Assembly (NCBI GenBank): GCA_017858055.1
Contig: JAFMCA010000008.1
Coordinates: forward strand, 1-59,842
DNA: 59,842 nt
Source of the DNA: Flavobacteriaceae bacterium
GTDB taxonomy: Bacteria > Bacteroidota > Bacteroidia > Flavobacteriales > Flavobacteriaceae
Direction of reading: 5' to 3'
A program made the translations under genes and the position numbers. Of this stretch, positions 4,812-42,020 are shown piece by piece (position 1 is the stretch's first letter; every line of letters begins with the position of its first letter). The notes under the pieces are model-generated. The model had not been told where the DNA came from, did no database searches, and saw only the letters and a list, made by a program, of their open reading frames with translations.

Positions 4812-5408
4812 TTATCCCTTACGAGCGGCAAGAGTTTTTACTATATCGGCTAAGGTAAAGCCCTTTGCTTGTAAAAGAATTAAGTAGTGAAACAATAAAT
4901 CTGCGCTTTCGTTAAGAAAGAGATCCTCCTGATCATCCTTTGCTTCGATTACGGTTTCTATAGCTTCCTCCCCTACTTTCTGAGCAATTTTATTGATTCC
5001 CTCACGAAATAATGAAGCCACATAGCTGTTTGGTGCATTGGCTGCTTTTCGCTGTGCAATAGTTGCTTCTAATTCTTCTAGAAATGCTAAGGGAGCAGTA
5101 TTTGATTCACCCCAACACGTATCCGTTCCCTTATGACAAGTCGGTCCCTCCGGTTTTGCGTAAATCAGCAGACTGTCTTGATCACAGTCTAGGTGAATGG
5201 AAACCAAGTTGAGAAAATTTCCACTTTCTTCCCCTTTAGTCCATAAACGTTGCTTTGACCGACTAAAAAAGGTTACTTTTTGAAGTTTTTGGGTAACCTC
5301 CAATGCTTCTTCATTCATATAACCGAGCATCAATACTTTGTTTGTGATTGCATCTTGAACGATTGCTGGGATTAATTGATCGGGAGTTTTTGAAAAATCT
5401 GCTTTCAT
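4812..5408 (-). CDS. hisIE: Bifunctional phosphoribosyl-AMP cyclohydrolase / phosphoribosyl-ATP pyrophosphatase
   Basis: 198 residues with two fused enzymes of histidine synthesis. The N-terminal HisI domain shows the metal-binding segment LDCDQDSLL and the cysteines in [11 protein letters not shown] (about residues 72-97). The C-terminal HisE domain (from about 108) has the acidic helices [13 protein letters not shown] and [10 protein letters not shown]. Together they catalyse steps 2 and 3 of the pathway. The start codon overlaps the end of hisF by 4 bases, consistent with translational coupling. It is the last gene of the his operon. Confidence 0.97.
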
Positions 5409-6169
5409 AAGGTTTCTATACGTACAGCAATTTGCTGTTGTTTGAGTTCGTTTTTAAGTTCGGGTATTGAAATTTCTCCAAAGTGAAAAACACTAGCAGC
5501 TAATGCAGCATCGGCTTTACCTTCTTTAAAAGTATCTATAAAATGAGAAACATTACCCGCTCCACCGGATGCTATGATGGGAATGTTAATTGTTTCGGAC
5601 AGTTGGGCAAGTGCATGATTGGCAAATCCTTGTTTTGTTCCGTCATGATTCATCGAGGTAAAGAGAATCTCTCCTGCTCCTCTGGATTCCACTTCCTTTG
5701 CCCATTCAAACAAATCCAGTTCCGTAGGCACTTTCCCTCCGACCAAATGTACTTTCCACTGGTTCTCAATTTGTTTTGCATCGATAGCCACTACAACACA
5801 TTGAGAACCAAATTGTAGTGCCAATTCATTAATTAGATCTGGATTTTTAACTGCTGCTGAATTGATGGATACTTTATCCGCTCCGTTTTTTAAAAGTACT
5901 TCTACATCGGCTATGGAGCTAATCCCACCGCCTACAGTAAAGGGAATGTCGATCGCTGCAGCCACTCGCAACACCAAGTCTGCGAGAGTTTTCCGCTTTT
6001 GTTCGGTAGCTGAAATATCTAAAAAAACCAATTCATCAGCTTGCTCAAGGGCATATTGGGTTGCAAGTTCAACAGGGTCTCCCGCATCCCGTAGGTCAAC
6101 GAAATTTACCCCTTTAACCGTCCTGCCGTCTTTGATGTCCAAACAAGGAATAATGCGTTTAGTCAGCAT
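5405..6169 (-). CDS. hisF: Imidazole glycerol phosphate synthase, cyclase subunit
   Basis: 254 residues, a (beta/alpha)8 barrel of normal length. It opens with [19 protein letters not shown], holding the catalytic Asp of beta-strand 1; the second catalytic Asp is in VVVAIDAK (about 130), and phosphate-binding GGG and SGGAGN motifs follow. It pairs with HisH to turn PRFAR and ammonia into imidazole glycerol phosphate and AICAR. Its first 11 bases overlap the end of the small ORF at 6159-6266, and its end overlaps hisIE by 4 bases. Confidence 0.97.
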
Positions 6170-6266
6170 ATGAAATAAGCTTTAGGTAGAGATCCATTTC
6201 TTTGCATCGTTCTAAATTTTTATCCTGACTCGTTTCATTCACAAAACGCAATGTTTTTATAATCAT
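6159..6266 (-). CDS. 35-codon ORF between hisA and hisF, unknown
   Basis: The reading frame begins [14 protein letters not shown] and ends LKLISYAD, 35 residues, with no membrane segment. Its ATG overlaps the hisA stop as ATGA, and its TAA lies 11 bases inside hisF in another frame. Without it, the hisA-hisF interval would be the only real gap (93 bases) in an operon where every other junction abuts or overlaps by 1, 4 or 11 bases. It could be a genuine small protein, a coupling device that hands ribosomes from hisA to hisF, or the remnant of a lost gene. I do not recognise the peptide. Confidence 0.5.
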
Positions 6267-6985
6267 GAGCTAAGTATAAATTTTTCTATTTGTTTTAATG
6301 AAATACGATTTTCATAAATTGCCTTACCAATGATCACTCCTTCACAGCCAAGCTCTTGAAGTTGCGGAAGCTCTTCAAAAGTAGAAATTCCTCCCGAAGC
6401 AATGAGCTTTATGTTTACTTTAGAGAGCAAGCTGCGGTAGAGCTCAAAAGCGGGTCCTTCTAGCATTCCATCCTTACTAATATCGGTACAAATAACGTAG
6501 GAGATCCCTTTCGCTTGATACGATTGCACAAAATCAAAGAGGTTCAATTGAGAGGTTTCGAGCCAACCGTCTGTGGCAATATACAACCCCTTCACATCAG
6601 CCCCTAGAATGATTTTTTCAGCGCCGTAGTTTTCAATCCATGAAACAAAAGTATCTGAATCCTTAACGGCGATACTCCCTCCCGTAATTTGATTGGCTCC
6701 ACTTTCGAAGGCAATTTTGAGATCGGTATCAGATTTTAATCCCCCCCCAAAATCAATTTTAAGCGAGGTTTGACTTGCTAGGGTTTCCAGGACCTTATAA
6801 TTGACAATTTGTTTCGATTTAGCCCCGTCCAAATCGACTAAATGGAGGTGTTGGATTCCATGAGCTTCAAAGGCTTTAGCTACTTCTAGGGGAGATTCGT
6901 TATAGATTTTTTTGGTAGTATAATCCCCTTTAGATAAGCGCACACATTTTCCTTCTATAATGTCTATTGCGGGTAGTATTCTCAT
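6263..6985 (-). CDS. hisA: ProFAR isomerase
   Basis: 240 residues with the HisA barrel signature: [21 protein letters not shown] at the N-terminus carries the catalytic Asp, DFGGGL and IASGGI hold phosphate, and the second catalytic Asp is in [11 protein letters not shown]. It opens the aminoaldose ring of ProFAR to give PRFAR, the HisF substrate. Its start overlaps the hisH end by 4 bases, and its stop overlaps the ATG of the 35-codon ORF. Confidence 0.97.
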
Positions 6986-7566
6986 TGGGATAGATTTAAA
7001 AAATTGCGTAAAAGAAGTTGCCCTTTCCTACTGCTTTTTTCAGGATGAAATTGGACCCCATAAAAATTATCCTTTTGTAAGGCCACGCTATACTCTCCAT
7101 TGTAATTGCTCGTTGCCACCGTTTCCTCCAATTGTGGTACATAAAAAGAATGTACCAAATACATATAGGAGTTAGAAGAGATGCCTTCAAACAATGGACC
7201 TTTAAGGTCGTGAATACTGTTCCAACCCATTTGAGGAACCTTCACTTGATTCGAAAAGCGTTTGACGGTTCCTTTTATGATTCCCAATCCTTTCACATCA
7301 CCCTCCTCGCTGTGCTCACATAGCAGTTGCATCCCCAAGCAGATTCCCAAAACGGGTTGTTTTAGGTTAGGAATTAACTTGTCCAATCCGTAATGGTGTA
7401 ATTTTTTCATGGCACTTCCAGCCGCACCCTGACCCGGAAAAATGACCTTATCCGCACTCCGGATCTCACGCTCATTTGAGGTTAATAAACTAGATACCCC
7501 TAGACGCTCCAAAGCAAATTGAAGGCTTTTCGTATTTCCCGCTCCGTAATCAATAATAGCAATCAT
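6982..7566 (-). CDS. hisH: Imidazole glycerol phosphate synthase, glutaminase subunit
   Basis: 194 residues, a class I glutamine amidotransferase. The nucleophile Cys is in GICLGMQLL, and the catalytic His and Glu are in GVQFHPEKS near the C-terminus; the N-terminal [10 protein letters not shown] is typical of HisH. It supplies ammonia to HisF. The gene abuts hisB with no spacer and overlaps hisA by 4 bases. Confidence 0.97.
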
Positions 7567-8694
7567 TTACAAACTTCCTTTCGTTGAGGGTAGAATCATT
7601 TTCTCTGGGTCGCGTTTTACTGCACCTTTGATTGCTTTGGCAAAAGCTTTGAAAATGGCTTCAATTTTATGGTGTTCGTTCGTTCCTTCAGCTTTGATGT
7701 TGATATTTGCTTTCGCACCATCGGAAAAGGATTTAAAAAAATGGAAAAACATTTCAGTTGGCATTTTGCCAATCATCTCCCGCTTGAATTCAGTTTCCCA
7801 AACCAACCAACTTCGACCCCCAAAATCTATGGCTACTTGAGCTAAGCAATCGTCCATAGGCAAGCAAAAACCATATCGTTCCATTCCTAATTTATTACTT
7901 AACGCTTGGGAAAATGCTTCTCCAAGAGCAATTGCCGTATCTTCTATCGTGTGGTGTTCATCAACTTCAAGATCTCCCTTTACACTGAGGCGAATATCCA
8001 TACCGCCATGGCGAGCCAATTGGTCTAACATGTGATCAAAAAAAACAATTCCTGTTGTGATCTCACTTTTCCCTGTGCCGTCTATGTTGAGTTCGAGATG
8101 GATGGCTGTTTCTTTTGTTTTCCTCTCGTAGCTTACTTGGCGTTGGTCCAGTTTTAAAAACGAATAGATTTCCTTCCAAGAAGTGGTGTTTAAAACAATC
8201 GGAAGCGATGCTTTAGTTTCCAATTCCCCCTCGCCCAGATGGGGATCATTGGCAAGGAACAATCCCTTACAACCGATGTTTTTTGCAAGTTCCATATCGG
8301 TAAGTCGATCTCCAATGACATAGGATTTACTCAAATCGTATTCTGGGTTTCCGAGGTACGAGGTCAGCATTCCTGTTCGTGGTTTACGAGTAGGTGCATT
8401 GTCTTGAGGAAGACTTTTATCGATCAAAACTTCATTAAATTCAATCCCTTCGTTTTGGAACGCTCGAAGCAGAAAATGTTGAACTGGCCAAAAGGTTTCT
8501 TCTGGAAAAGATGCTGTTCCCAAGCCGTCTTGGTTGGTAATCATTACCAATTCAAAATTCAGTTCTTTTGCAATTTTTCCTAAGTAGGTAAATGCCCCGG
8601 GATAAAAGTCCAATTTCTCAAAGGAGTCTAATTGATAGCCTTCTGGTTCTAGTGCCAAAGTACCATCACGGTCTATAAACAATACTTTTTTCAT
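7567..8694 (-). CDS. hisB: Bifunctional histidinol-phosphatase / imidazoleglycerol-phosphate dehydratase
   Basis: 375 residues with two domains. The N-terminal HAD phosphatase (about 1-170) shows the nucleophile motif FIDRDGTL and [12 protein letters not shown]. The C-terminal dehydratase (from about 185) has the metal-binding [30 protein letters not shown] and [12 protein letters not shown] motifs. It performs two separate steps of the pathway. The fused form occurs in enterobacteria and many Bacteroidota. It overlaps hisC by 4 bases and abuts hisH. Confidence 0.97.
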
Positions 8695-9743
8695 ACTGAA
8701 TAACTTATTTTTTTTAACGCTTCGATCAAACGGTCATTTTCTTCTGGACGGCCTACACTGATCCGAAGGGTGTTTTCACAATTTAAGTTTTTAGATGGAT
8801 TGCGAACTACGATTCCCTCAGAGATCAACTGTTGGTAACGCAATAGACTGTCATCCACACGAATCAAAACAAAATTTGCGTCAGAAGGGTAACAGTGAAG
8901 TACTATGGGAAGAGTTGCCAAAGCGTCTTCCAATCGCTTTCTTTCGGAAAGCAACACAGCGACTTGCGCTCCTACTTTATCCTGCTCTTTAAGTCGTGTT
9001 AACGCAGCATTAATCGTTAGTGAATTGATATTATACGGTGCTTTTATCCGATTGAAAAAAGCAATCATTTCAGGGTGAGCAAAAGCCATTCCTAAACGTG
9101 CTCCAGCCATACCTTGTGCCTTTGAAAATGTTTGACAAACAAGGAGATTGGGATATTTGTCAAGCCAAGACACCACCGAGGGATTTGAGCTAAATTCAAC
9201 ATAAGCCTCATCCACTACAACCAAACCTGAAAAGTTTTGAAGAAGCTGTTCAATTGTGTTTAAATCAAAGTTATTGGCAGTTGGATTGTTTGGTGTTGGA
9301 ATAAAAATCACTTTGGTGGTCTCATTTATGGCTCCCAGTATGGCCGCTATATCCAATTGAAAATTAACTGTAAGAGGAACTTCTTGGACGCCGACCCCAT
9401 GTAAATTTGCGGCTACTTTGTACATACCAAAAGTTGGAGGAAAAATCATAATTTGATCTTTTCCAGGAGCACAGCTTCCCATAATCACCTGAGAAATAAA
9501 TTCGTCGCTACCGTTGCTCAAATAGAGTTGATCTTCCTCTACTCCTTTCCAAAGGGCAATTTCTTTTTTTAATTGCTGTTGTAAAGGATCAGGATAACGA
9601 TTGACAACACTTTCAAATGGATTTTCATTGGCATCCAATAAAATCATTTTTCTACCATCGCCCTCAAATTCTTGACGTGCAGATTGGTATGGAGCCAAGG
9701 ATATTAATGAGGGACGGATGTATTTTGAGAGATTAAATTCCAT
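8691..9743 (-). CDS. hisC: Histidinol-phosphate aminotransferase
   Basis: 350 residues, fold-type I PLP aminotransferase. DANENPF at the N-terminus, NPNNPTAN-type substrate loop ([11 protein letters not shown]), VVDEAYVEF, the PLP lysine in [16 protein letters not shown] and the C-terminal [10 protein letters not shown] are all as expected. It transfers the amino group from glutamate to imidazole acetol phosphate. Its start lies 11 bases inside the end of hisD. Confidence 0.96.
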
Positions 9744-11025
9744 CTTTAATTGCTTTTAATCGAATACTAACAGCGTTTTTGTGTGCCTCCAAGCCTTCAG
9801 CAGCAGCCATGAGTTCAATGGTTTCACCTAGAGACTGGATCCCTTCTTTAGTGATCTTTTGAAACGTAATGGCTTTTCTAAAACTATCTAAATTCACCCC
9901 ACTGTATTGTTTGGCATAGCCGTTTGTAGGTAAGGTATGGTTAGTGCCTGAAGCATAGTCACCCGCACTTTCAGGAGTGTAATTTCCAACAAATACAGAA
10001 CCTGCATTGTTGACGTTTTCGAGGTATAAGGATTCGTTTGTCACACATACGATATAGTGTTCTGGTCCATACGAATTAATAAAATCTATGGCCTCACTAT
10101 CCTTCTCAAAATAAATGGCTTTTGAGTTTTCTAAGGCAGCTGCAGCTATTTCCTTACGAGGTAAATCATCGAGTTGAGCGGCTATAGATTGAGCCACCTG
10201 TTCAAGAAGTGGTTCGTGAGTGGTTACAAAAACGACCTGACTGTCTTTACCGTGTTCCGCTTGTGAAAGAAGGTCTGCAGCGATAAAATCGGCCTTTCCA
10301 CTTTCATCTGCAACAACTAACAATTCACTGGGTCCTGCAGGCATATCGATCGCGACATGATGGCGTGTAGCCCACTGTTTGGCTACCGTAACGTATTGAT
10401 TTCCGGGGCCAAAGATTTTATACACCTTAGGGATTTGTTCCGTACCTAGTGCCATGGCTGCAATGGCTTGAATCCCTCCTACTTTAAAAATCTGCTCAAT
10501 ACCGCATAGCTTCGCTGTATACAAAACTTCAGCAGGAAGCCCTCCCTCTTTATTGGGTGGAGAACACAATACTATTTCCTTACAACCGGCAATTTGAGCA
10601 GGAATTGCAAGCATTAAAATAGTTGAAAACAAAGGTGCTGAACCTCCGGGAATATACAACCCAACCTTTTCAATCGGTTTTTTTTCTTGCCAGCATTCCA
10701 CTCCATTTTGAGTGGTGACTCGGAGGGTTTCGGTGAGTTGTGCCTTATGAAAACGTTCAATATTATCTTTTGCATTTTGAATCGCATTTTTTAAGGGCTC
10801 TGAGACTTTTGTTGCGGCTTGGTCTAGCTCCAAGGAAGTCACTTTAAATTCATCCTGAAGAACACCGTCAAATTGAGCGGTATAATCAATTATCGCTTGA
10901 TCTCCTTTTGCTTTTACGGCATCAAAAACAGAAGCAACGAGAGGTTCTAAGTCTTCATAAGTAGCTGTAGGACGCTGCATAAGCGCTTCCCATTCAGAGG
11001 CGGAAGGAGTTTTATACTGCTTCAT
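9733..11025 (-). CDS. hisD: Histidinol dehydrogenase
   Basis: 430 residues from the ATG at 11025. A longer reading from 11103 would overlap hisG by 79 bases and add a tail not expected for HisD, whereas 11025 gives the tight TAATG junction with the hisG stop. Family motifs are present: YIPGGSAPLFST, GPGNQYVTVAK, PAGPSELLVVADE, LSQAEHGKDSQ with zinc/substrate residues, and GPEHYI. It oxidises histidinol to histidine in two NAD-dependent steps. Confidence 0.96.
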   Translation of the reverse strand: MKQYKTPSASEWEALMQRPTATYEDLEPLVASVFDAVKAKGDQAIIDYTAQFDGVLQDEFKVTSLELDQAATKVSEPLKNAIQNAKDNIERFHKAQLTETLRVTTQNGVECWQEKKPIEKVGLYIPGGSAPLFSTILMLAIPAQIAGCKEIVLCSPPNKEGGLPAEVLYTAKLCGIEQIFKVGGIQAIAAMALGTEQIPKVYKIFGPGNQYVTVAKQWATRHHVAIDMPAGPSELLVVADESGKADFIAADLLSQAEHGKDSQVVFVTTHEPLLEQVAQSIAAQLDDLPRKEIAAAALENSKAIYFEKDSEAIDFINSYGPEHYIVCVTNESLYLENVNNAGSVFVGNYTPESAGDYASGTNHTLPTNGYAKQYSGVNLDSFRKAITFQKITKEGIQSLGETIELMAAAEGLEAHKNAVSIRLKAIKDGI

Positions 11026-11876
11026 TAACGAACCATTTTTTCTATGGGACAGACCAAAATATCCTCTGCTCCAGCTGCTTTTAATTGGTCGATGACTTCC
11101 CAAAAATCTCCAGCATTAATTACAGAATGTAATGAACTCCAGCCTTTTTGAGCAAGAGGTAAGACTGTAGGGCTTTTTAAAACGGGAAGTATATTACTAA
11201 TCGCTTCTATTCTATCATTGGGAGCATTCAATAAGATGTATTTGGATTGTTTTGCTCTCAATACAGACTGTATCCGAAAACGCAGCTTTTCAATTGTCTC
11301 TTTCGTTTCGTCACTAACTTTAGGAGCCTGAACCAAAACCGCCTGCGAACGAGCGATTTCGATAACTTCCTTCAGATTATTTTTAAATAGGGTACTCCCA
11401 CTGGAAACGATATCGCAAATTGCATCTGCCAAACCGATGTTCGGTGCAATCTCAACAGAGCCGTTGATGATGTGGAGATCTGCTGTAATTTGATTGGCCT
11501 CCAAAAAAGCATTCACTGTATTGGGATAAGAAGTTGCGATTCGCTTCCCCGCAAGATCTTCAACCCCTCGAAATCGGGTATTTTTGGGTACAGCTATAGA
11601 AACCCTGCATTTTGAAAATCCCAATTGTTCAATGATCTTGAGGTCCTCCCCTTTTTCAACTAATAAATTTTCACCTAAAATAGCTAAGTCAACCACACCG
11701 TCACGCATGTATTGGGGAATGTCTCCATTTCTTAAATAGAAGACTTCCATTGGGAAATTTCTAGCTTCCGCTTTAAGTTGATCCTTTCCATTGTCAATAG
11801 AAATTCCACAACTTTTGAGTAAGTTCAATGAATCTTCATTGAGTCTCCCTGATTTTTGTATTGCTATACGTACCAT
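11025..11876 (-). CDS. hisG: ATP phosphoribosyltransferase, long form
   Basis: 283 residues, the long (HisG-L) form with a C-terminal ACT-like regulatory domain (from about 210), which is the usual site of feedback inhibition by histidine. Typical segments are AIQKSGRL at the start, DLAILGENLL, RIATSYPNTVNAFL and DAICDIVSSGSTL (PRPP binding). It carries out the first committed step of histidine synthesis. It is the first enzyme gene of the operon and is preceded by the attenuator at 11888-12003. The stop shares a base with the hisD start. Confidence 0.97.
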   Translation of the reverse strand: MVRIAIQKSGRLNEDSLNLLKSCGISIDNGKDQLKAEARNFPMEVFYLRNGDIPQYMRDGVVDLAILGENLLVEKGEDLKIIEQLGFSKCRVSIAVPKNTRFRGVEDLAGKRIATSYPNTVNAFLEANQITADLHIINGSVEIAPNIGLADAICDIVSSGSTLFKNNLKEVIEIARSQAVLVQAPKVSDETKETIEKLRFRIQSVLRAKQSKYILLNAPNDRIEAISNILPVLKSPTVLPLAQKGWSSLHSVINAGDFWEVIDQLKAAGAEDILVCPIEKMVR

Positions 11877-11887
11877 ATCTTTTTAAT

Positions 11888-11917
11888 AAAAAAAACCCGT
11901 CTGATTTCTCAAACGGG
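11888..11917 (-). terminator. Intrinsic terminator of the his attenuator
   Basis: On the minus strand CCCGTTTGA and TCAGACGGG form a 9-bp stem (one G-U pair) closed by a GAAA tetraloop, followed at once by eight U. It sits between the leader peptide and hisG, so it can only act to stop transcription before the structural genes. Its 5' arm can instead pair with 11950-11958. Confidence 0.85.
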
Positions 11918-11943
11918 CTAGTATTAGGTTCATAGACATCCTA

Positions 11944-12003
11944 CTACATCTCGTTTGATTGAGTGTATGTTGTATGATGTATAGAGATTCTTTTTGTTGT
12001 CAT
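11944..12003 (-). CDS. hisL: Histidine operon leader peptide (19 aa)
   Basis: ATG at 12003, TAG at 11944-11946; peptide MTTKRISIHHTTYTQSNEM with two adjacent His codons (residues 9-10). The last codons contain TCAAACGAG (11950-11958), complementary to the 5' arm of the terminator except for one mismatch, so ribosome position on this ORF decides which hairpin forms. It begins only 8 bases after an exact TATATTTG box. I infer function from context; two His codons is a low number for such a leader. Confidence 0.75.
   Translation of the reverse strand: MTTKRISIHHTTYTQSNEM
11950..11958 (-). promoter_or_regulatory. his antiterminator arm
   Basis: Minus-strand TCAAACGAG pairs with terminator 5' arm CCCGTTTGA (11909-11917): seven consecutive pairs, one A-C mismatch, one more G-C. 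The pairing excludes the terminator stem. A ribosome paused at the two His codons (11974-11979) would leave this segment free; a ribosome at the leader stop would cover it. A further hairpin (11919-11928 with 11940-11946) lies between the two. Confidence 0.7.
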
Positions 12004-12011
12004 TTGATTTG

Positions 12012-12019
12012 CAAATATA
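12012..12019 (-). promoter_or_regulatory. his operon promoter, -7 box TATATTTG
   Basis: Exact Bacteroidota -7 consensus on the minus strand. With the spacing seen at the SRP RNA gene, transcription would start near 12007, giving the leader peptide a 5' UTR of about 4 bases. I see no clear -33 TTG at the usual distance. Confidence 0.6.
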
Positions 12020-12046: not shown

Positions 12047-12865
12047 TTATTGATTTCCTAATATAATAGGCAAGCCTTTATCACCACTTCCGATTACAAT
12101 CACTTTTGCATTTGGAGATTCGGAAAGCTTGATTGTCGCTTCGATTCCTTTTTCTTGAAGAATTTTATCTGTTAGTGACGCACTTAGGATTCGGTTTGCT
12201 GTAGCTTTACCTTCGGCATCAATTCGCTGACGTTCTGCTTCTTGTTTTGCTTTTTCAATACGGAATTCGTATTCCAATGCTTCTTGCTCTTGGTTTAATT
12301 TTCGCTCAATGGCTTCTCGAATAGCTATAGGAAGTGTTACATCACGAACCAAAACAGCATTAAGTTGAACGTATTGGTCCTCTACTGCCTTTCTAGTTTC
12401 TTCAAAAATTTCATTTTGGATAGCATCCCTTTTGGTTGAATACAATTGCTCAGGAGTATAACGACCCACTATAGATCGGGCTACTGCACGTATTTGAGGA
12501 ATAATGATAATATTGAGGTAGTTTTCTCCTTTCGTTTTGTGAAGTAAACCCAATTCTGAAATTTTGGGTTGATATAATACAGAGATGTCCAAACTAATTT
12601 CTAGCCCGTTTGAAGACAATACCTGCATTTTACTTTCGAATACCTCTTGTTGCTTGACGTTATAAATATATACCTTATTCCAAGGAGCAATGACATGAAA
12701 TCCTTCTCCTAGCGGTGGTTCGTCGGTTACGACTCCTCCTCCAAAGGTTTTGAAGAGTACTCCAGCTTCACCATATCCAATATTAATAGAGGATTTGGAA
12801 ATAAAAATAAGCAAGACTACAACGAGTAAAATAATAGGCAGTCCAATTTTAGGTAATTTTTGCAT
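12047..12865 (-). CDS. Prohibitin-like SPFH-domain membrane protein
   Basis: 272 residues. One N-terminal membrane segment (about residues 6-25, LPIILLVVVLLIFI) is followed by an SPFH/Band 7 domain (from about 28) and a helical, charged region (about 175-235) rich in Glu, Ala, Arg and Gln that would form the coiled coil used for ring assembly. This is a prohibitin/HflC-like layout; such proteins form membrane scaffolds that often modulate FtsH-type proteases. It follows fabG by 17 bases and is probably the last gene of the lpxD-to-fabG run. Confidence 0.88.
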   Translation of the reverse strand: MQKLPKIGLPIILLVVVLLIFISKSSINIGYGEAGVLFKTFGGGVVTDEPPLGEGFHVIAPWNKVYIYNVKQQEVFESKMQVLSSNGLEISLDISVLYQPKISELGLLHKTKGENYLNIIIIPQIRAVARSIVGRYTPEQLYSTKRDAIQNEIFEETRKAVEDQYVQLNAVLVRDVTLPIAIREAIERKLNQEQEALEYEFRIEKAKQEAERQRIDAEGKATANRILSASLTDKILQEKGIEATIKLSESPNAKVIVIGSGDKGLPIILGNQ

Positions 12866-41892: not shown

Positions 41893-41912
41893 CGAGTAGG
41901 ATTAAAAAAAAT

Positions 41913-42008
41913 GGGCAAGCGACCTACATCACACCGCTACGACCACCTACCCTTGCTGCGTTCCCACCCTGGGGGATTCGGCAGGAGCTGGTTGTGTAGG
42001 ACTTGCCC
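41913..42008 (-). ncRNA. ffs: Signal recognition particle RNA (4.5S type)
   Basis: The minus strand reads GGGCAAGTCCTACACAACC at the 5' end and closes with GGTCGCTTGCCC at the 3' end; the ends pair (GGGCAAG/CTTGCCC, CCTAC/GTAGG). The helix 8 apical part CCCAGGGTGGGAACGCAGC has the GGAA-type loop and asymmetric bulge that bind Ffh. The length is about 96 bases, a small bacterial type without Alu domain. A run of eight U follows the closing stem and should serve as terminator. Confidence 0.93.
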
Positions 42009-42012
42009 GTAG

Positions 42013-42020
42013 CAAAGATA
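42013..42020 (-). promoter_or_regulatory. SRP RNA promoter, -7 box TATCTTTG
   Basis: Exact consensus on the minus strand, with two TTG (42041-42043 and 42038-42040) 20 and 17 bases upstream as -33. Four bases separate the box from the paired RNA 5' end, which gives the transcription start distance for this genome. Confidence 0.75.

Follow-up and report, generated by a model that had tools for sequence, protein, structure and literature searches.

A conserved leader-peptide element ahead of hisG in Flavobacteriaceae that very probably acts as a histidine-responsive attenuator

The window analysed here, by which we mean the whole 59,842-nt stretch of contig JAFMCA010000008.1 (assembly GCA_017858055.1, Flavobacteriaceae bacterium), carries on its minus strand a complete histidine operon in the order hisG-D-C-B-H-A-F-IE (4812-11876). 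All eight genes (hisG, hisD, hisC, a bifunctional hisB, hisH, hisA, hisF and hisIE) have an NCBIfam match; the first, hisG, spans 11025-11876 (TIGR00070, E 4.6e-54) with its ATG at 11876-11874. Directly upstream on the same strand lies an SPFH/band-7-like gene (12047-12865), identified by inspection and with no NCBIfam match at E 1e-20. Elsewhere in the window a Bacteroidales small SRP RNA (RF04183) is found at 41909-42015 on the minus strand, with 111.8 bits.

The element of interest lies just ahead of hisG on the minus strand. Read in the direction of transcription, it begins with a -7 promoter box, TATATTTG (12012-12019), which fits the TAnnTTTG consensus of the flavobacterial primary sigma factor. 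An eight-base gap, CAAATCAA (12011-12004), leads to the ATG of a 19-codon ORF for a putative leader peptide, MTTKRISIHHTTYTQSNEM (11944-12003, stop included), whose codons 9 and 10 (11974-11979) are adjacent His codons that would serve as control codons. Within the last leader codons is arm 2, TCAAACG (11952-11958), which can form 7 bp with arm 3, CCCGTTTGA (11909-11917). Arm 3 is both the 5' arm of a terminator and the 3' half of a candidate antiterminator of which arm 2 is the 5' half. The terminator continues through a GAAA loop (11905-11908) and a 3' arm, TCAGACGGG (arm 4; 11896-11904), into eight T, TTTTTTTT (11888-11895), giving a GAAA-capped stem of 9 bp whose T tract ends 11 nt short of hisG. 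The box, the 19-codon ORF, its two His codons, the capped 9-bp terminator and the eight U of the original prediction were all re-extracted base for base; its arm complementary to the terminator 5' arm is also present, but the extent proposed for it (11950-11958) was two bases too long.

We located HisG in 35 of 38 genomes of the genus, the window genome counted, and in 123 of 149 genomes of the family, a set that includes the window genome and one genus member and so leaves 121 loci from other genera. The regions upstream of hisG were inspected at all 35 genus and 121 family loci. A His leader with an ATG start precedes hisG in 35/35 genus and 118/121 family loci, and if a GTG start is also allowed in 35/35 and 120/121; at the sole family exception (L138) the locus is interrupted by a contig end. 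Leaders were picked by their His content, a choice that favours His, and were set against shuffled sequences for ATG starts only: a short ATG ORF with the pattern H.{0,2}H appeared in 29 of 700 shuffled genus upstream regions and in 35 of 35 real ones, and the share of shuffled upstream regions giving an ATG His ORF was 4% for the genus, 6% for the family and 11% for the class. The leader ahead of hisG is not a product of chance. Conservation of the leader among relatives had been proposed as a check on the attenuator, and once run it came out in favour, the leader being kept in every analysable genus and family locus.

The number of His codons varies from two to six in the family. The pair emphasized in the original prediction is real in the window and peculiar to the window genome, since the other 34 of the 35 genus genomes carry three or four. 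Many family leaders look like MTFIQLHHHHFHTCTQAS, and their frequent C-terminal QA arises because the RNA arm, CTCAAGCG or CTCAGGCG, is translated. Among 80 public records of close relatives, which overlap the genomes of the earlier sets and bear labels that include MS024-2A and Candidatus Arcticimaribacter, the His leader is present in 74 with an ATG start and in all 80 with ATG or GTG. On the hisG strand, a covariance model of the family element matched 80/80 of these records with E values of at most 0.001, alongside 28 weaker antisense matches. GTG-start His leaders occur at loci L062, L077, L166, L179, L280, L284, L294, L297, L299 and L301; in L280, L284 and L299 the GTG lies, by eye, about 4 nt past the -7 box, which would make these possibly leaderless GTG starts.

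The pairing arms are conserved along with the leader. A terminator score of at least 30 was obtained at 35/35 genus and 120/121 family loci. An uninterrupted arm of at least 7 pairs is present at 35/35 genus and 102/121 family loci, the other 19 family loci having 6 pairs (11 loci) or fewer (8 loci) by the arm finder used. When the 48-nt region upstream of the window terminator was shuffled, a match between arms 2 and 3 as good as the window's arose in 0.85% of 2000 shuffles; with 60 shuffles for each leader, arm matches with p >= 0.1 made up 22% of family and 9% of genus leaders.

In an alignment of 116 sequences, comprising the window and 115 of the 118 ATG-leader sequences of the family (L002, L114 and L135 were omitted for irregular leaders, and a few other irregular ones were retained), six of the ten pairs of the terminator helix have changed on both sides with the pair kept. 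The eight antiterminator columns are paired in between 100/114 and 116/116 ungapped cells. At one arm-3 column where T gives way to C, 10 of the 116 sequences carry C and all 10 have G opposite in arm 2, as against 31 of the other 106 (Fisher p 1.4e-5, ignoring relatedness).

Folding adds a helix that the original prediction, sound in the elements it named, had not described. In the unmasked window leader the His-codon region pairs with a segment past the leader stop and holds arm 2 in the loop (11930-11985 in the MFE fold), forming a predicted protector hairpin. Arm 2 is enclosed by at least 6 pairs in 34/35 genus and 117/118 family folds (151/153), a count taken without a shuffle control. 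The mean z of the leader fold is -2.0 in the genus and -3.3 across the 118 family leaders, and only -1.17 for the window itself. The protector helix varies in sequence across relatives.

Permutation tests in which cognate arms were compared with swapped ones, and which ignore relatedness, point to coevolution of both helices at the level of the family. Among the 118 family sequences, cognate arms 2 and 3 pair more strongly than swapped ones (z -8.5, 0/2000 permutations), as do cognate sides of the protector (z -9.9, 0/2000). Among the 35 genus sequences no such excess was seen for arms 2 and 3 (z 0.0, 973/2000) or for the protector (z -0.6, 547/2000). On these comparisons, arms 2 and 3 coevolve in the family and not within the genus, where nothing is visible because the arms vary too little. 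The arm covariation looked for as a further check on the original prediction is therefore found in the family, with none within the genus. RNAalifold, run on MAFFT alignments, recovered the terminator only, probably because three- and four-His leaders gap differently; for this reason the evidence on the protector comes from folds and from comparing cognate with swapped pairings.

The locus thus combines a leader ORF bearing control codons for the operon's own amino acid, an antiterminator that excludes the terminator by sharing its 5' arm (7 bp in the window) and an intrinsic terminator between the leader and the first gene. We are highly confident that this is a ribosome-mediated transcription attenuator of the his operon that responds to histidine, a mechanism known from other bacteria. 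The leader and its switchable terminator very probably turn the his genes on when histidine is low. The attenuator interpretation put forward in the original prediction gains support, as all its elements are present, the leader is conserved and the arms coevolve in the family.

In the scheme we favour, transcription would begin a few bases ahead of the leader AUG, and a ribosome would start on the leader peptide near the 5' end. With ample His-tRNA the ribosome would reach the leader stop and cover arm 2, arm 3 would pair with arm 4 and transcription would stop before hisG. With scarce His-tRNA it would stall at the His codons and mask the 5' side of the protector, leaving arm 2 free to pair with arm 3 while the polymerase reads through. 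If the leader were not translated at all, the protector hairpin would keep arm 2 looped and the terminator would form.

Folds of the window sequence fit this scheme in part. When the RNA is truncated immediately after arm 3 and either His codon is masked by a ribosome, the 7-bp antiterminator folds (-11.6 kcal/mol total); with the ribosome masked at the leader stop it cannot form. For the full transcript with a ribosome masked at His, the terminator is still favoured by free energy, and the switch must therefore be kinetic, with the choice made during transcription. The geometry of the leader speaks for the scheme. In the window, 12 nt separate the start of arm 2 from the start of the leader stop; the distance is 12-18 nt in 35/35 genus leaders and 9-18 nt in 109/118 family leaders. 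In 11/118 family leaders and 1/35 genus leaders the final His codon extends at least to the first base of arm 2, so that a ribosome stalled on that codon could mask the arm.

One predicted pairing lies outside the simple attenuation model. In untranslated window RNA ending just past arm 3, it is the 5' end (TCAAATG), not arm 2, that pairs with arm 3 in the fold. This TCAAATG surrounds the leader start codon (12007-12001) and repeats most of arm 2. A 5'-end match to arm 3 of at least 7 nt is present in 10/35 genus sequences (the window and nine others) and in 2/118 family sequences. The repeat could be a second antiterminator, a means of masking the start codon, or a mere A-rich start context.

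The distance from promoter to leader is short throughout the genus. Where several boxes fitted equally well, the one nearest the ATG was used; on this basis an exact TAnnTTTG box lies 5-8 nt before the leader ATG in 35/35 genus genomes, with a gap of 8 in the window. In Flavobacterium psychrophilum the primary-sigma -7 box is placed at -12 to -5 (PMC9723704), and for F. johnsoniae a candidate was taken as a probable promoter when 4 or 5 nt lay between box and start (PMC6847099). Applied to the window, these spacings put the transcription start at 12006-12007, 4-5 nt past the box, and therefore give a predicted 5' UTR of 3-4 nt; the roughly four bases originally predicted hold up on the same reasoning. 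By box position the leader 5' UTR would be 0-4 nt in 35/35 genus genomes.

The family appears to hold a second arrangement. An exact box was found within 60 nt of the ATG in 44/118 family leaders, lying at 4-11 nt in 20, at 12-16 nt in none, at 17-24 nt in 21 and further away in 3. The other 74/118 have a one-mismatch box only, at 11 nt or less in 23, at 12-13 nt in none and at 14-22 nt in 51.

The trpE locus of the window genome, outside the window, has a similar layout: upstream of trpE (L227) there is a Trp leader, MNRTIILRNGWWYRLQQ, with an exact TATATTTG box 5 nt before its ATG and a terminator after it. This own-genome trpE locus gave no Rfam match up to E 1. WW Trp leaders with a gap of 4-6 nt were seen at 29 of the 30 genus trpE loci examined (30 of 34 genomes with trpE), and their 5' UTR would be about 0-2 nt. 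Because the search accepted exact boxes only, up to 40 nt away, the single locus without a hit (L242) may have an altered box.

Such spacing is not confined to attenuators. Across the long ORFs on both strands of the window (53 mechanical ORFs), 7 of the 16 exact boxes within 60 nt sit 9 nt or less from the ATG. This suggests that the small genome may produce many near-leaderless mRNAs, in contrast to F. johnsoniae, where 87% of predicted leaders are longer than 10 nt (PMC6847099). We tentatively propose, as a possibility somewhat short of an even chance, that in a small-genome marine lineage of Flavobacteriaceae the his and trp attenuator leaders are read from (almost) leaderless mRNA, with the ribosome loading on the 5' end once it is out of the polymerase. 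Loading of this kind would stand in for Shine-Dalgarno recognition and would help ribosome and polymerase to advance together; elsewhere in the family there would be a second his form, whose promoter and start codon lie about 10 nt further apart.

The element reaches beyond the family. In the class, 57 of 119 genomes searched had hisG, and 29 of the best 30 loci by score have a His leader with an ATG or GTG start; the terminator finder returned nothing in 2 of these 30 and weak hairpins only in 3 more. In the phylum, 18 of the best 30 matches lie outside the class, mostly in two families, and 13 of these 18 have a His-rich ORF (start codons include GTG and TTG) with its stop about 80-115 nt before hisG, two being doubtful and three having none, a tally made without a shuffle control. 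In the order, the covariance model matched 51 of 108 genomes, a total that may include some without hisG. The window genome has a single model match, at hisG, on which paralogous copies of the element at its other operons were rejected. A further 18 model matches were taken from other genomes of the order; three lie at hisG, and of the 15 elsewhere 14 resemble, by eye, ordinary terminators after genes. At the remaining locus, L223, from another family of the order, the match has a short Lys/Arg-rich ORF, MNKKRKRNLLKSI, on one side and an ABC-transporter-like gene on the other; this is perhaps a leader for basic amino acids, or chance. Two ilvD-family loci showed no leader, by eye only.

The hairpin before hisG might instead be the ordinary terminator of the SPFH/band-7-like gene, with an independent hisG promoter downstream and a fortuitous ORF. 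The position of that gene, directly upstream on the same strand, would suit such an arrangement, and an SPFH relative lies within the 3.4-kb hisG locus at 28/30 genus and 20/30 family loci. The element is nevertheless kept at the 12 of these 60 loci where no SPFH relative was found (2/30 genus, 10/30 family), and we rejected the explanation on that persistence. The unbroken retention of the His leader, the coevolution of arm 2 with arm 3 in the family and the exact -7 box standing before the leader in all 35 genus genomes likewise argue against an upstream-gene terminator, which we judge very improbable.

A structured leader that senses histidine or uncharged tRNA directly, in the manner of a riboswitch or T-box and with an incidental ORF, is scarcely credible. 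The family RNA is indeed structured, as its mean z attests, and it sits at a biosynthetic operon, but what has been conserved is a reading frame that keeps its His codons in phase with arm 2 and the stop codon, whereas the sequence of the protector helix differs between relatives. The leader in the window has no Rfam match at gathering and the RF00514 matches of its relatives are sub-threshold, on which grounds riboswitch and T-box were rejected. Control of hisG through translation or Rho would dispense with the intrinsic terminator, and some attenuators do act on translation, according to the accessible part of one source (PMC9413887); against this, the strong GC stem with its eight T, ending so close to hisG, covaries in the family, and we hold such control to be very unlikely. 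Ribosome-mediated transcription attenuation remains the reading we prefer.

As the mechanism is known and a hisG element had already been noticed, this analysis contributes the anatomy of that element, the coevolution of its arms, its wider distribution, and the predicted near-leaderless layout that his and trp leaders have in common within one genus. The distribution points to ribosome-mediated attenuation of his genes as an ancient, general property of Bacteroidota, whose members lack Shine-Dalgarno sequences. If so, transcription and translation would have to be coupled closely enough there to act as a switch. A 2013 survey considered that gamma-proteobacteria may have been the source of the amino-acid attenuator motifs in Rfam at that time (PMC3766115), a view that the observed spread would qualify. 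Less expected is the near-zero 5' UTR predicted for the his leader, with the trpE leader equally close to its box. How the 5' UTR affects this timing can be tested directly, given the two promoter spacings of the his leaders and a genus whose his and trp leaders are both predicted to be near-leaderless.

The abstract of Vitreschak et al. (2004) reportedly mentions candidate attenuators in Bacteroidetes/Chlorobi. A 2010 study described leader-peptide systems as previously known only in Proteobacteria and Actinobacteria (PMC2965389), and attenuation comes up once, in the introduction, in the accessible text of a 2021 paper on the his genes of the superphylum (PMC8305728). Guérin et al. (2021) found strong clues that leader peptides attenuate amino-acid operons in F. 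psychrophilum, and they named a structured 5' element ahead of hisG that other genera of Flavobacteriaceae share and that has no Rfam hits (PMC9723704). The available text of that paper gives no model for hisG (PMC9723704); to its element we add the window genome, the protector hairpin, the coevolution and a wider spread. Our full-text search for leader-peptide or his attenuation in Flavobacteria or Bacteroidota, with most subscription papers outside its coverage, returned nothing closer. The Bacteroid-trp motif (RF01692) is a probable cis-regulatory motif of Bacteroidetes, and the accessible part of the report by Weinberg et al. (2010) places none at hisG (PMC2864571).

A leaderless attenuator leader is known in trpL of Sinorhizobium meliloti, whose RNA starts at the start codon itself (PMC7298713), whereas here it would start within a few bases of it; the phylum and the amino acid differ, and the start site of the present element is a predicted one. 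With the enterobacterial his attenuator (RF00514, His_leader) the element shares a tandem-His leader ORF, an alternative antiterminator and an intrinsic terminator, all directly before hisG. The enterobacterial leader has a longer run of His than the flavobacterial one. Sub-threshold matches to RF00514 were obtained in 5 of 20 relatives searched, the best scoring 34.2 against a gathering threshold of 49 bits, a score that the window does not reach. Unlike its enterobacterial counterpart, the flavobacterial element has an arm 2 that lies within the leader ORF and is looped by the protector hairpin, has a predicted 5' UTR of only 3-4 nt, and belongs to a host phylum described as lacking Shine-Dalgarno sequences (PMC6847099).
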